64,000 bases of DNA, taken from positions 1-64,000 of the forward strand of contig QHSQ01000140.1 in the NCBI GenBank assembly GCA_003221615.1, given 5' to 3'. The DNA is from Candidatus Rokuibacteriota bacterium. GTDB lineage: Bacteria; Methylomirabilota; Methylomirabilia; Rokubacteriales; CSP1-6. Numbering within the stretch: position 1 is the first letter of the stretch; each line of letters begins with the position of its first letter. A program made the position numbers and the translations under genes. Positions 13,165 through 62,382 of the stretch are shown piece by piece. Under the pieces are notes generated by a model. It was not told the origin of the DNA and made no database searches. It was given only the letters and a program-made list of their open reading frames with translations.

Positions 13165-13404
13165 GTCGCATTCTCCATCGTGTTGAGGTTCACTGCGCCA
13201 ACTCCACCGCGTCCGTGCTGTCTGTAAGCGATTCCCGTAGGAGCAACGGCGATGCCAAGCCCAGACACCCGATCCAAGCTCGCTGCGGTGTGGATTTAGA
13301 CGCCGGCGACGGCGGGGACCGGACGAAACTCGGGTTCTCGGCTGCCGGAAATTGTTCCCTATCGGTGCCGTGCTGACAAATATTTGGGGAAGAAATTGCT
13401 TGAC

Positions 13405-13445
13405 TTGACACGGGGCCGCGGCTGGAGCAGCCTCGCGTGAGGCCA
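13405..13445 (+). promoter_or_regulatory. shared promoter/operator module copy A (upstream of E1 alpha)
   Basis: TTGACA-N18-AGCCTCGCGTGAGGCCA; contains GCCTC-GCGT-GAGGC palindrome; identical spacing to copy B at 29283..29323. Confidence 0.6.
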
Positions 13446-13469: not shown

Positions 13470-14453
13470 ATGACAACCCAGATGATCGAGCCGCGGATGG
13501 AGCTGGAGCAGAACCTCCACATGTACCGTCAGATGGCGAAGATTCGGGCCTTCGAGGAGCAGGTGAACGAGCTCTACAAGAGCGCGAAGATGCCGGGTCT
13601 GGCCCATCTCTATGTCGGTGAGGAAGCGGTGGCGGTCGGCGTGTGCGAGGCGCTGCGCCGCGACGATTTCATCACGAGCACGCATCGCGGCCACGGCCAC
13701 TGCCTGGCCAAGGGCGCGTCCGTGAATCGGATGTTCGCCGAGCTCCTGGGCAAGGAGCCTGGCTACTGCCGCGGCAAGGGCGGCTCGATGCACATCGCCG
13801 ATCCCGAGACCGGCAACCTCGGCGCCAACGCCATCGTCGGCGGCTCCGCCGGGATCGCGACGGGCGCCGCGCTCTCGGCGAAGATGCGGGGCAGCAACCA
13901 GGTCGCCGTGTGCTTCTTCGGCGACGGCGCGCTGGGACAGGGTCTGCTCTACGAATCGATGAACATGGCGTCGCTCTGGAAGCTGCCAGTCATCTATATC
14001 TGCGAGAACAACCTCTACGGCGAATACACGCCCTGCGGCGAGACCATCGCCGGCGAAATCCTGGCGCGGCCCCGGGCGCTCGGCGTGCACGCCGAGACCG
14101 TCGACGGCCAGGACGTCCAGGCTGTCAACGCGACGATGCGGCGGCTGGTCGAGCGCGCGCGCCGTGGCGAAGGGCCCGCCTTCCTCGAGTGCAAGACCTA
14201 TCGCTACTACGGCCACCACGTCGGCGACGTCAACCGCGAGTACCGCACGCGCGACGAGGAGAAGGAGTGGATGAGCCAGCACGATCCGCTCGCGACCCTC
14301 GCCGGACGGCTCTCCGGGCAGGGGCTCGCGGATCAGGGGATCTTCGACCGCATCCAGACCGACGTGAAGGCGGAGATCGACACCGGTGTCCAGTTCGCGC
14401 TGGCCGCGCCCTACCCGGACGCGAACCAGGTCGGCGAGGATGTCTACGCGTGA
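13470..14453 (+). CDS. pdhA: pyruvate/acetoin dehydrogenase E1 component, alpha subunit
   Basis: [69 protein letters not shown] (ThDP motif); GTG 13437 is an alternative start. Confidence 0.95.
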
Positions 14454-23175: not shown

Positions 23176-23901
23176 TCAGCTCCGTTCGATCTCGGGCGCG
23201 ATCCGTCCGGCGTCGGCCACGTGGGCTTGCCAGTAGTGATGCGTTTTCGCGACCACTGTGATGATGCTCTTCACCTCATCCGTCAGCCCGTAGTCGGGTC
23301 CGGCCGGAAGCAGGAGCCGGTCGTCCTCGAGGCGCGCGCCGACGTTCTCGAGGATAATGACCGCGCACATCCACGCGGCCATCGTCGGGGAGTCGCACGT
23401 GACCGAGAGCCAGCCCGGTCCGGCCGCCTCCGCGTAAAGTCCCGTCGTCTCCCAGATTCCCCGGCGCATCTCGGCGAGCATCTCGGCGTCGGAGTCCGCG
23501 CCGGAGCCGCCCGGTGCGCGCAGCGGGCTCTCGGGGCCGCGCTGCGGGGGCCCACCGTAGAGCGCGAGCTCGCAGAACGTCGTCCACATGCGACCCCAGT
23601 CCGGTCGACCGTCGGCGCGCCACAGAAACGGCGCCGAGGTCATGGGCGCGGCGGGATCAGGACGGGTGGTGGGCGCGTACTCGCGCCGCTGCGCCTCGCC
23701 GTCGCGACGCAGCGAATGCTCGAGCGCGTCGAGGCGTGAGACCGGAGCCGCGGCGACCGTGACGGGCATCCCGACCTGGTCGGCGAGCCGGGCCGCGAGA
23801 TCGGCGCATGCCAGGCGTGTCGCCGCGAGAAGATCGGCGTCGATCACGAGGACGAGACGGCCGGCCATGCCGTCGTCACGCGGGTCTCGAGCGTCGGTCA
23901 C
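23176..23901 (-). CDS. conserved hypothetical protein
   Basis: 241 aa; PFLWRADGRPDWGRMWTTFCELALYGGPPQRG ... VKSIITVVAKTHHYWQAH; operonic with the His-rich ORF and amidohydrolase. Confidence 0.7.
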   Translation of the reverse strand: MTDARDPRDDGMAGRLVLVIDADLLAATRLACADLAARLADQVGMPVTVAAAPVSRLDALEHSLRRDGEAQRREYAPTTRPDPAAPMTSAPFLWRADGRPDWGRMWTTFCELALYGGPPQRGPESPLRAPGGSGADSDAEMLAEMRRGIWETTGLYAEAAGPGWLSVTCDSPTMAAWMCAVIILENVGARLEDDRLLLPAGPDYGLTDEVKSIITVVAKTHHYWQAHVADAGRIAPEIERS

Positions 23902-29242: not shown

Positions 29243-29282
29243 GGCAGAGATTCTAGTCGATGGATTCAAGGCGCGACGCCAC

Positions 29283-29323
29283 TTGACTCCGCGCCCCGAA
29301 CGGGCGAGCCTCGCGTGAGGCCA
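29283..29323 (+). promoter_or_regulatory. shared promoter/operator module copy B (upstream of E1 beta)
   Basis: TTGACT-N18-AGCCTCGCGTGAGGCCA, same 24-nt start-to-start spacing as copy A. Confidence 0.6.
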
Positions 29324-29337
29324 CGGGCGACCGCGGT

Positions 29338-29389
29338 AGTGCGCGCTGCAGACCGTCGCGGGGCTGGGGCCCCGCCGGTCGAGGCGCGC
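29338..29389 (+). repeat. leader hairpin repeat, single copy (variant stem GACCG/CGGTC)
   Basis: AGTGCGCGCTGCAGACCGTCGCGGGGCTGGGGCCCCGCCGGTCGAGGCGCGC; ends 19 nt before the E1 beta ATG. Confidence 0.85.
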
Positions 29390-29408
29390 ATATAAACGGA
29401 GGGCGGTC

Positions 29409-30395
29409 ATGAGCGAGCGAGAGCTGACGTACGGCGAGGCGGTGAAGGAAGCGATCGCGGAGGAAATGCGGCGCGACCCGCGCGTGTTCCTCATCGGCGA
29501 GGACGTGGCCGAGGCCGGCCACCCGTTCAAGACCCTCACGGGGCTCGTCCAGGAGTTCGGCACTCAGCGGATCATCGACACGCCGATCTCCGAGCCCGGC
29601 TACGCCGGCATCGGCGTCGGCGCCGCGATGACGGGCATGCGCCCGGTCGTCGACGTGATGTTCGGCGACTTCATCACGCTGACGATGGATCAAATGGTCA
29701 ACCAGGCCGCCAAGGCGCACTACATGTCGGGCGGCAAGATCAAGGTGCCCATCGTCTTCCGCACGACGCTCGGGGCGACGCGGCGCTCGGCCGCCCAGCA
29801 CTCGCAGTCGCTGCACGCCTGGGTGAGCCACGTCCCCGGCCTCAAGGTGGCGCTGCCCTCGGGCCCGTACGAGGCCAAGGGCCTGATGAAGACGGCCATC
29901 CGCGACGACAGCCCGGTCGTCATTTTCGAGGACAAGATGATGTACCGGGTCAAGGGCCCGGTGCCCGCCGACGACTACACGATTCCTTTCGGGGTCGCCG
30001 AAATCAAGCGCCCGGGCACGGACATCACGATCGTCGCCACCAGCAGCATGGTCGCGGTCGCTCTCGGCGCCGCCAAGCTCCTCGAGAAGGCTGGGATCAG
30101 CGCCGAGGTGATCGACCCGCGCACGACGTGGCCGCTCGACAGGCAGGCCCTGATCGAGTCGGCCAAGAAGACCTCGCGCGCGATCGTGGTGGACGAGGGC
30201 TACGAGCGCTACGGCGTCACCGCCGAGATCGCCTCGGTGATCGCCGAAGGCGCGTTCTATCACCTGGACGCGCCGGTGAAGCGCATCGGCGCCATGGACG
30301 TCCCGGTGCCGTTCTCGCCGGTGCTCGAGGATCTCACGGTGCCGACGGAGAAGTCGGTCGCGGAGGCCGCGAAGGCGCTCTGCCGGAAGTCATGA
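29409..30395 (+). CDS. pdhB: pyruvate/acetoin dehydrogenase E1 component, beta subunit
   Basis: RELTYGEAVKEAIAEEMRRDPRVFLIGEDVAEAGHPFKTL; QHSQSLHAWVSHVPGLKVALPSGPYEAKGL. Confidence 0.95.
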   Translation: MSERELTYGEAVKEAIAEEMRRDPRVFLIGEDVAEAGHPFKTLTGLVQEFGTQRIIDTPISEPGYAGIGVGAAMTGMRPVVDVMFGDFITLTMDQMVNQAAKAHYMSGGKIKVPIVFRTTLGATRRSAAQHSQSLHAWVSHVPGLKVALPSGPYEAKGLMKTAIRDDSPVVIFEDKMMYRVKGPVPADDYTIPFGVAEIKRPGTDITIVATSSMVAVALGAAKLLEKAGISAEVIDPRTTWPLDRQALIESAKKTSRAIVVDEGYERYGVTAEIASVIAEGAFYHLDAPVKRIGAMDVPVPFSPVLEDLTVPTEKSVAEAAKALCRKS

Positions 30396-31447
30396 GCCCC
30401 GTGACTCCTCCCGTGCGCATCGACGTCGATCTGTCCAGCGATACGGTCACGCGGCCCACCGCCGACATGCGCCGCTTCATGTGCGAGGCCGAGGTGGGCG
30501 ACGAGCAGAAGCTCGAGGATCCGACCGTCAATCTCCTGAACGAGATGGTGGCCGAGCTCCTGGGCAAGGAAGCCGCGGTGTTCCTGCCGTCCGGCACCAT
30601 GTGCAACGAGATCGCGCTGCGCGTACACGCGCGGCCGGGCGAAGAGGTGATCGCCCACCACACCGCGCACCCCATCAATTTCGAGACCGGCGGGCCGGGC
30701 GCGCTGGCCGGCGTGAACATGCGAGCGATCGACGGCGCGCGCGGTCAATTCGACGCGGCGGCAGTCGAAGCGGCGGTGCGCCCGCCCTCGCGCTACGCGC
30801 CCCGCACTCGGCTCGTCTGGGTCGAGCAGACGAGCAACCTCGGCGGCGGCTCGGTGTGGCCGCTCGAGCGTCTCGAGGCGGTGGCCGCGGTCGCGAAGCG
30901 CCACGGCCTGGCGACCCATATGGACGGCGCGCGCCTCATGAACGCGGTGGTGGCGAGCGGCGTCTCCGCGCGGGACTATGCGGCGCGGTTCGATTCCGCG
31001 TGGATCGATTTCACCAAGGGCCTCGGCGCTCCGGTCGGCGCCGCGCTGGCGGGCTCGCGGGCGTTCATCGACGAGGCATGGCGGTGCAAGCAGCAGATGG
31101 GGGGCGCCATGCGCCAGGCCGGGATCATCGCCGCTGGCGGCGTGTACGCGCTGCGCCACCACGTGAAGCGTCTGGCCGAGGACCACGCGAACGCGCGCCG
31201 TCTGGCCGAAGGCCTGGCCGGTCTGCCCGGCGTGCGTCTCGACCCGAGGACGATCGACACGAACATCGTTTTCTTCGAGCTGACGGGCTCGCTGACCGCC
31301 TCGGCCGCCGTGGAGCGCCTGCTCGTCCGCGGCGTGCGCATGGGCGCGCTCGGGGCGCGCACGATTCGCGCTGTCACCCACCTCGACGTCGACGCCCACG
31401 CGATCGAGCGGGCGCTGGCCGTCGCCCGCGACGTCTTCACGGGCTGA
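30392..31447 (+). CDS. ltaE: low-specificity L-threonine aldolase
   Basis: DLSSDTVTRPTADMRRFMCEAEVGDEQKLEDPTVNLLNE; FLPSGTMCNEIA; PLB-type lysine region DFTKGLGAPVGA. Confidence 0.92.
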   Translation: MSPVTPPVRIDVDLSSDTVTRPTADMRRFMCEAEVGDEQKLEDPTVNLLNEMVAELLGKEAAVFLPSGTMCNEIALRVHARPGEEVIAHHTAHPINFETGGPGALAGVNMRAIDGARGQFDAAAVEAAVRPPSRYAPRTRLVWVEQTSNLGGGSVWPLERLEAVAAVAKRHGLATHMDGARLMNAVVASGVSARDYAARFDSAWIDFTKGLGAPVGAALAGSRAFIDEAWRCKQQMGGAMRQAGIIAAGGVYALRHHVKRLAEDHANARRLAEGLAGLPGVRLDPRTIDTNIVFFELTGSLTASAAVERLLVRGVRMGALGARTIRAVTHLDVDAHAIERALAVARDVFTG

Positions 31448-31459
31448 GCGCGGATCCCG

Positions 31460-32791
31460 ATGCCGACCGACATCATCATGCCCGCCCTGGAGCTGGCGCA
31501 GGAGACCGGCAAGGTCGTGCACTGGCTCAAGCGCGCGGGGGACACCGTGCGCAAGGGTGAGCCGATCGTCGAGATCGAGACCGACAAGGTGACGGTCGAG
31601 ATCGAGGCGCCGGCGTCCGGCGTCTTGCGTGATGTAACCGCGCAGGAGGGCGACGTGGTGCCCGTCGGGCGGACGATCGCGATCGTCGTCGGGACCGACG
31701 AGGCCGGCGCCGCCGCTGCCGCGGCGACCGTCATGCCCCCGGCCAGCGCGGCCGCGACGGGCGCCATTCCGATCCCGCCGACCGCGGTCAGCGCGGCGGG
31801 CGGCGCGGTGAAGGCATCGCCGCTCGCGCGGAGGATCGCGGAGCAGCACGGCGTCGACATCGCGCGGGTCCGAACGCCGAGCGGACGGGTCGAGAAGGCC
31901 GACGTCCTGGCCTACGTCGAGAGCCAGAAAGCCGCGGGGAACGGACGGGAAGGACGACTCGTCGCGGCTTCGCCGAAGGCGCGCCGCCTCGCGGCCGAGC
32001 GAGGGCTCGATCTCGCCGCGGTTCGCGGCACAGGCCCCGGCGGCGCCGTCCTGGCGGTGGACGTGCCGGTCGCGCGCGTTGCCCCGGCGTCCGCCGCGAT
32101 GCCGAGCGCGCCGCGCGTCGGCGCTCCTGGCGTCGGTACGGTCTGGCGAATCATGGCCGAGCGCATGACGACCAGCTGGACGACGGCGCCCCATTTCTAT
32201 CTGGTGCGCGAGGTCGACGTGAGCCGTCTGGTCTCGTGGCTCGATCGGGCGCGCAAGCAGACGGGTGCCCACATCACGTACACGGATCTGCTGATCAAGC
32301 TCGTCGCGGCGGCGCTCTCGCGTCACCCGCGCGTGAACGCGTCATGGAGAGACGACGCGATCGCGCAGCACACGGACATCAATATCGGCCTGGCGGTGGC
32401 CATCGACGACGGCCTCGTCGTGCCCGTGATCCATCGCGCGGACACGCTGGGCCTCGCGGAGATCGCAGCCCGGCGGGAGGACGCGGTGAGCCGTGCCCAG
32501 GCTGGCAAGCTGCGCCCGGGCGACATCCAGGGCGGTGGATTCACGATCAGCAACCTCGGGATGTACGGCGTGGACGCATTCAGTGCGATCGTCAATCCGC
32601 CGCAGGCCGCCATTCTCGCCGTCGGGCGCATCGCCGACCGCGTGGTCGCCCGCAATGGCCAGCCCGCCGTCCTGCCCACGATGATGCTGACCCTGTCGTG
32701 CGACCATCGCGCGCTCGACGGCGCGCGGGGGGCCCAGTTCCTCGGGGCGCTCGCCGATCTGGTCGAGGAGCCGCTGGCGCTTCTCGTCTAG
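31460..32791 (+). CDS. pdhC: 2-oxo acid dehydrogenase E2 (dihydrolipoamide acyltransferase)
   Basis: Lipoyl motif VEIETDKVTVEIEAP; peripheral subunit-binding domain; catalytic LSCDHRALDGARGAQFL. Confidence 0.95.
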   Translation: MPTDIIMPALELAQETGKVVHWLKRAGDTVRKGEPIVEIETDKVTVEIEAPASGVLRDVTAQEGDVVPVGRTIAIVVGTDEAGAAAAAATVMPPASAAATGAIPIPPTAVSAAGGAVKASPLARRIAEQHGVDIARVRTPSGRVEKADVLAYVESQKAAGNGREGRLVAASPKARRLAAERGLDLAAVRGTGPGGAVLAVDVPVARVAPASAAMPSAPRVGAPGVGTVWRIMAERMTTSWTTAPHFYLVREVDVSRLVSWLDRARKQTGAHITYTDLLIKLVAAALSRHPRVNASWRDDAIAQHTDINIGLAVAIDDGLVVPVIHRADTLGLAEIAARREDAVSRAQAGKLRPGDIQGGGFTISNLGMYGVDAFSAIVNPPQAAILAVGRIADRVVARNGQPAVLPTMMLTLSCDHRALDGARGAQFLGALADLVEEPLALLV

Positions 32792-53300: not shown

Positions 53301-53489
53301 TTCAGAGGCGCGCCTCGGCCGGCGGGGGCCCCAGCCCCGCGACGGCCTGCGACGCGCACCAGGTTCAGAGGCGCGCCTCGGCCGGCGGGGGCCCAGCCCC
53401 GCGACGGCCTGCGACGCGCACCAGGTTCAGAGGCGCGCCTCGGCCGGCGGGGCCCCAGCCCCGCGACGGCCTGCGGCGCGCACTACAGG
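53301..53489 (-). repeat. leader hairpin repeat, three tandem ~63 bp units
   Basis: 53301-53363, 53364-53425, 53426-53489; each TTCAGAGGCGCGCCTCGGCCGGCGGGG(G)(C)CCCAGCCCCGCGACGGCCTGCGRCGCGCAC...AGG. Confidence 0.95.
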
Positions 53490-62260: not shown

Positions 62261-62382
62261 GGAGTGCGCGCTGCAGGCCGTCGCGGGGCTGGGGCCCCGC
62301 CGGCCGAGGCGCGCCTAAAGATGGAGTGCGCGCTGCAGGCCGTCGCGGGGCTGGGGCCCCGCCGGCCGAGGCGCGCCTTAAA
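62261..62382 (+). repeat. leader hairpin repeat, two tandem ~62 bp units
   Basis: GGAGTGCGCGCTGCAGGCCGTCGCGGGGCTGGGGCCCCGCCGGCCGAGGCGCGCCT(A/T)A.. at 62261 and 62323; ends ~20 nt before ATG 62402. Confidence 0.95.

Follow-up and report, generated by a model that had tools for sequence, protein, structure and literature searches.

The DNA analysed here, referred to as the window, is a stretch of 64,000 nucleotides (contig C512 of a 7.24-Mb Candidatus Rokuibacteriota assembly) in which the genes for the two subunits of an E1 dehydrogenase component lie 15 kb apart. A first-pass annotation had noticed the same short module upstream of each. What is this shared sequence, and what would read it? 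Our answer is that the two modules are probably sigma-70-type promoters with a weak -10 element and a common start-site sequence, which would drive both transcription units and give them matched output. The genes concerned are these:

13470-14453, + strand: E1 alpha subunit (2-oxoacid dehydrogenase, pyruvate dehydrogenase E1 alpha type; Pfam E1_dh PF00676, 9e-79)
29409-30395, + strand: E1 beta subunit (Pfam Transket_pyr/Transketolase_C; NCBIfam NF006667 above cut-off)
30413-31447, + strand: PLP-dependent (threonine-type) aldolase in the E1 beta unit (NCBIfam NF041359 above cut-off)
31460-32791, + strand: E2 acyltransferase with a lipoyl domain, in the E1 beta unit (Pfam 2-oxoacid_dh, E3_binding, Biotin_lipoyl)

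These Pfam and NCBIfam assignments bear out the proposal that the modules precede E1 alpha and E1 beta. The best NCBIfam model for E1 alpha is PDH_E1_alph_y, with a score under that model's cut-off.

Paired modules, probably promoters

As first described, TTGACA (13405-13410) and TTGACT (29283-29288) are each followed 24 nt on, start to start, by the identical 17-mer AGCCTCGCGTGAGGCCA, at 13429-13445 and 29307-29323, and the weaker TTGACnCnGnGCC match between them is likewise confirmed. The left half of the 17-mer holds a -10 box, so that each module can be divided into promoter elements:

13404-13410, + strand: E1 alpha -35 element CTTGACA (from the sequence; C-TTGAC in 29 of 29 class sites)
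13428-13433, + strand: E1 alpha -10 element CAGCCT, after a 17-bp spacer (genome-wide xAnnnT spacing peak at 17/18 bp; kept across genera)
13434-13445, + strand: putative discriminator/start-site region CGCGTGAGGCCA of E1 alpha (leaderless ATG peak; 10/10 kept in G005, G006 and G007)
29282-29288, + strand: E1 beta -35 element CTTGACT (from the sequence; conserved)
29306-29311, + strand: E1 beta -10 element GAGCCT, after a 17-bp spacer (from the sequence; genome-wide xAnnnT spacing)
29312-29323, + strand: putative discriminator/start-site region CGCGTGAGGCCA of E1 beta (12/12 identity with the E1 alpha copy)

When promoter candidates were compared in 5,356 pairs, no other pair agreed as well over the 12 bases after the -10 box, the next best reaching 9/12, while the spacers of the two promoters agree at 9 of 17 positions and their flanks at the level of chance. 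This identity makes it likely that the two parts of the split complex are expressed at matched levels, through the core promoter and start-site sequence that they share, and the co-regulation originally suggested for the split dehydrogenase gains from the analysis: the module is real, conserved and, in this genome, almost confined to the two E1 genes, which likely implies matched transcription. Many copies at unrelated places would have told against it, and this is not what we found. Across the 7.24-Mb genome the exact 14-bp inverted repeat within the module has no occurrence besides these two, and an assembly search for TTGAC-N16-26-CCTCNNNNGAGG returned only three unrelated matches besides the two E1 sites. 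The 14-mer alone is nevertheless not the significant part. Base composition predicts about 0.4 copies per genome, and the window shows no enrichment of near-matches with up to 2 mismatches; we therefore place the weight on paired position and conservation. The candidate CGCGTGAGG, considered as a general start-site signal, was rejected: of its copies in 1.25 Mb, 6 are intergenic and 40 lie in genes, and it stands directly after a -10 box only at the two E1 sites.

The promoter form of this genome

The module had been thought to have no -10 element where one is expected. This is incorrect: CAGCCT and GAGCCT sit 17 bp from the -35 element and fit the form TTGAC-N17/18-xAnnnT found across the genome. 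Promoter statistics were drawn from 1.25 Mb (17%) of the genome, with genes called by a home-made caller, by scanning the positions 3' of each TTGAC within 619 upstream regions. These regions contain 103 TTGAC, after which xAnnnT lies at a spacing of 17 bp in 28 cases and of 18 bp in 25, while each of the remaining spacings between 10 and 24 has 1-5. In all non-coding DNA of the same 1.25 Mb the corresponding counts are 64 and 40, against 2-17 elsewhere. Boxes without a leading T are real in this genome, because [CG]AnnnT in all non-coding DNA occurs 33 times at 17 bp and 1-14 times at other spacings. Intergenic TTGAC with xAnnnT at 17-18 bp defines 104 promoter candidates, in 46 of which the first -10 base is C or G; the pentamer seen most often at -10 is AGCCT (10/104). 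Both E1 sites thus have the TTGAC and the xAnnnT at 17-18 bp of a sigma-70-type promoter, and lack the first-position T, which is preferred and not defining in this genome (C in alpha, G in beta). The narrower string CTTGAC-N17-GCAGCCT was dropped as an abundant class, since it is not enriched genome-wide (12 occurrences, against 17 in a reversed control).

Start sites can be placed from the same candidates. An ATG peak lies 7-9 nt past the -10 box (14/104), and in the E1 alpha genes of G055 and G015 the ATG follows CAGCCT/GAGCCT by exactly 7 nt, as leaderless genes would look. On this basis the start sites are placed inside the 17-mer, the predicted positions being about 13440-13442 for E1 alpha and about 29318-29320 for E1 beta.

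In the mechanism we propose, RNA polymerase, presumably with the housekeeping sigma factor, would bind the -35 element CTTGAC(A/T) and, beyond the 17-bp spacer, the -10 element xAnnnT (CAGCCT or GAGCCT). The first part of the 17-mer would act as the -10 element and the remainder as GC-rich discriminator and start site, with transcription beginning about 7-9 nt past the -10 box. E1 alpha and E1 beta, in separate units, would need matched amounts, which could account for the retention of a common core and start-site sequence; a weak non-T -10 box together with a common discriminator would give both promoters equal strength and response.

There is precedent for such boxes. In Mycobacterium smegmatis, ANNNT is present in 79% of 6,090 promoters, a leading T in 63% of those, and the ANNNT promoters without it (about a third) are weaker (PMC6448022); -10 boxes lacking the first T are well known in high-GC bacteria (PMC6448022; compare PMC3160421). 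The E1 promoters resemble these high-GC sigma-70/SigA ANNNT promoters, specifically the VANNNT subset (PMC6448022), and leaderless TAnnnT signals (PMC3160421), in having A and T at -10 positions 2 and 6, in a start (here predicted) 7-9 nt on, and in some leaderless starts. They differ in a strong TTGAC -35 element and in that two unrelated genes share 12 more bases after the -10 box. The conserved GC-rich CGCGTG between -10 box and start also resembles, in sequence, the GC-rich discriminators of promoters under ppGpp or supercoiling control (e.g. PMC8422995), although here the whole genome is GC-rich. For an uncultured and poorly studied phylum, TTGAC-N17/18-xAnnnT, with non-T boxes common and some starts leaderless, may serve as a working promoter definition.

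Conservation among relatives

Relatives were compared block by block, with the G003 alpha, G061 beta and G001 beta rows left out and flanks aligned without gaps. Between this genome and its congener G007, the alpha promoters agree in the -35 element (7/7), spacer (14/17), -10 box (6/6) and next 10 bases (10/10), while the flanks agree at 5/30 and 10/30 and the leader at 2/15. Across about eight genera, CTTGACTC...GCAGCCTCG or near variants are found at E1 alpha and/or E1 beta. Judged by these alignments, the E1 promoter is a genuine footprint. The expectation of conservation in relatives was thus borne out for the -35 element, the -10 box and the next 10 bases in the congener, but the right arm of the palindrome is not kept across genera.

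Two features of the alignments argue against contacts of an ordinary sigma-70 promoter as the whole explanation. The constraint on CGCGTGAGGC in the E1 promoters is, from the sequences compared, greater than a generic -10 box needs and goes beyond sigma-70 contacts alone, and the alpha spacer, identical at 17 of 17 positions between this genome and G005/G006, could reflect a further bound factor.

The palindrome over the predicted start site

The inverted repeat was put forward as a shared control site. Its two copies are:

13430-13443, no strand: inverted repeat GCCTC-GCGT-GAGGC, first copy, over the -10 box and start site (from the sequence; putative as a functional palindrome)
29308-29321, no strand: inverted repeat GCCTCGCGTGAGGC, second copy (from the sequence)

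Comparison does not support that proposal: the left arm overlaps the -10 box, and the right arm varies while the -35 and -10 elements stay. If GCCTCGCGTGAGGC were an operator, a dimeric repressor would cover the -10 box and start of both genes and shut both down in response to a metabolite, in the manner of E. coli PdhR, whose site sequence we take to be unrelated to this palindrome. The location over -10/+1 would suit a repressor, the palindrome is better conserved than the downstream leader, and it is perfect in both copies of this genome, at E1 alpha of G005, G006 and G007, and at an upstream site in G004 (contig C192, at the contig end, following the genes that otherwise neighbour E1 beta). 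An operator should, however, keep its symmetry in orthologous promoters, and here the symmetry is broken in about half of the genus sites, with the -10 box retained, and in nearly all other genera. The right arm reads GAGAT in G002 and G003, GGGGC in G005/G006 beta and CCCTC in G007 beta, and the symmetry is broken in G004 alpha and G001 beta as well. Other genera keep the promoter without the palindrome, with right arms such as GGAGGCC (g23, where GCCTCGGAGGC has an arm spacing of 1, not 4), GGTGGGG, CCTAGTC and GACGTAG, among others; the one exception is the E1 beta promoter of G061, which retains CTCGCGTGAGGCC. Inverted repeats with 5-bp arms occur in 12 of the 104 promoter candidates and in 13% of random intergenic windows, and the 57 family genomes hold 21 copies of the exact 14-mer, five of them at identified E1 promoters, one at the G004 site on C192, and 15 scattered and unplaced. 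No linked cognate regulator was recognised among the annotated genes from E1 alpha to E2, where one gene (23176-23868, between E1 alpha and E2) is without a family match. The likeness to PdhR control in Proteobacteria, a palindrome near the start of pyruvate-dehydrogenase-type genes (PMC5343134), is therefore limited, as the symmetry is not conserved here and the cluster has no recognised GntR regulator. We dropped the palindrome as a conserved unit, the right arm not being kept and equal repeats being so frequent in random intergenic DNA, and regard the operator as improbable.

A hairpin in the 5' leader RNA was also considered and rejected: GCCUCGCGUGAGGC folds weakly (-8 kcal/mol), neither module has an Rfam match above the gathering score, and a transcript beginning at the predicted start would contain only part of the hairpin, because its left half falls in the -10 box.

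Other genes with an E1-type promoter

A sequence-only model built from 20 E1 sites was searched over 56 genomes, and a second over the genus with 29 sites, some of them non-E1 sites whose scores are partly by construction. The only strong scores in the genome studied here are the two E1 sites (E values of 1e-6 and 2.5e-5), followed by a DinB site (0.017). DinB-like and S9 peptidase genes carry an E1-type promoter in five or more genomes (here C189:14451; also G004, G005, G006 and G008), a YVTN beta-propeller gene does so here (C33:26179) and in G005 and G007, an LLM/cyclase operon in G044, G045 and G056, and a Zn-alcohol dehydrogenase gene standing before E1 beta in G052 and G053. On C33 the YVTN beta-propeller gene with the E1-type promoter lies behind a putative PQQ-dependent alcohol dehydrogenase (L228, 13221-17183). 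The E1 cluster of G042 has further promoter copies inside: at C221 (L369, 12210-14005) a partial E1 beta copy precedes a full one, and the cluster contains three E1-class promoters. From the sequences, the shared promoter type may mark a regulon, or these sites may simply be ordinary promoters at the GC-rich end of their range.

The recurrence of this gene set would favour a broader operator, either GGCTGnnnCAGCC in the spacer and -10 box or the CTTGACTCCGnGCC...CTGnnGCAGCCTCG block in full. A dedicated activator, or else an alternative sigma factor, would recognise it and govern a small regulon including E1 alpha and E1 beta; this reading overlaps the sigma-70 promoter in where it places the promoter. 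A G at column 21 is invariant in the model, and CTG is common upstream of the -10 box. Yet the E1 beta promoter of this genome lacks CTGnnnCAG, the reversed control for the strict string tells against a special class, and CTTGACTC is unlinked to non-T -10 boxes in the general promoter set (p = 0.46). We consider such a regulator possible, if unlikely, and are a little more doubtful of its extension to a lineage-specific Rokubacteria regulon (split E1, DinB/S9 peptidase, YVTN, LLM/cyclase) in which an undescribed regulator or sigma factor, acting through a CTTGACTCCGnGCC-N-CTGnnGCAGCCTCG promoter class, would balance the split dehydrogenase. It might also be supposed that the likeness is recent, one promoter having been copied before the other gene when an operon split. 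E1 alpha adjoins E1 beta in G016, G040, G047 and G049, and alpha and beta promoters are alike within g23 genomes as well (G043: CTTGACTCCGxGCC..CTGACGCAGCCTCGG); but the likeness ends sharply at the promoter blocks, as the spacer and flank comparison above indicates, and the shared block is older than the split of several species. Recent duplication thus seems very improbable, and two sigma-70-type promoters kept alike remain our preferred explanation.

Gene order in the family

The distance from E1 alpha to E1 beta is about 1 kb in G070, with one gene between, and 9-40 kb in others. In many of the genomes where the two are separated, though not in G002 and G003, a promoter of the E1 kind stands before E1 beta itself. 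The locus offers an example of a complex with two subunit genes that lie side by side in some relatives and keep matching promoters where they are far apart. E1 beta paralogs (about 48% identity) in one genus (G047:C133, G049:C140, G050:C148, G051:C26) show one TGA in the match, possibly from the alignment overrunning a stop.

A dispersed hairpin repeat in the E1 beta leader

Between the E1 beta promoter and the ribosome-binding site lies a further element:

29339-29391, + strand: dispersed 53-bp hairpin repeat in the E1 beta leader (fold -42 kcal/mol)

It is absent from this leader in G006/G007 and tandem in G005, and the copy at 29339 has no above-threshold match in Rfam. Further copies of the 53-nt hairpin GTGCGCGCTGCAGGCCGTCGCGGGGCTGGGGCCCCGCCGGCCGAGGCGCGCC are found in the window at 62264-62316 and 62326-62378 (+ strand) and near 53307-53483 (- strand). 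This genome has 78 copies with up to 3 mismatches, often in tandem at 60-66 bp, and none of the reversed pattern; 36 of the 57 family genomes carry the repeat, with up to 138 copies. Compensatory pair changes (C-G/A-T, G-C/A-T) occur in the stem. The intergenic copies lie in sense toward the downstream gene in 36 of the 41 examined, commonly end 15-27 nt before its start codon, and are often squeezed between a stop codon and the ribosome-binding site. For REP-like repeats, such a position, in sense and close to the start codon, seems unusual.
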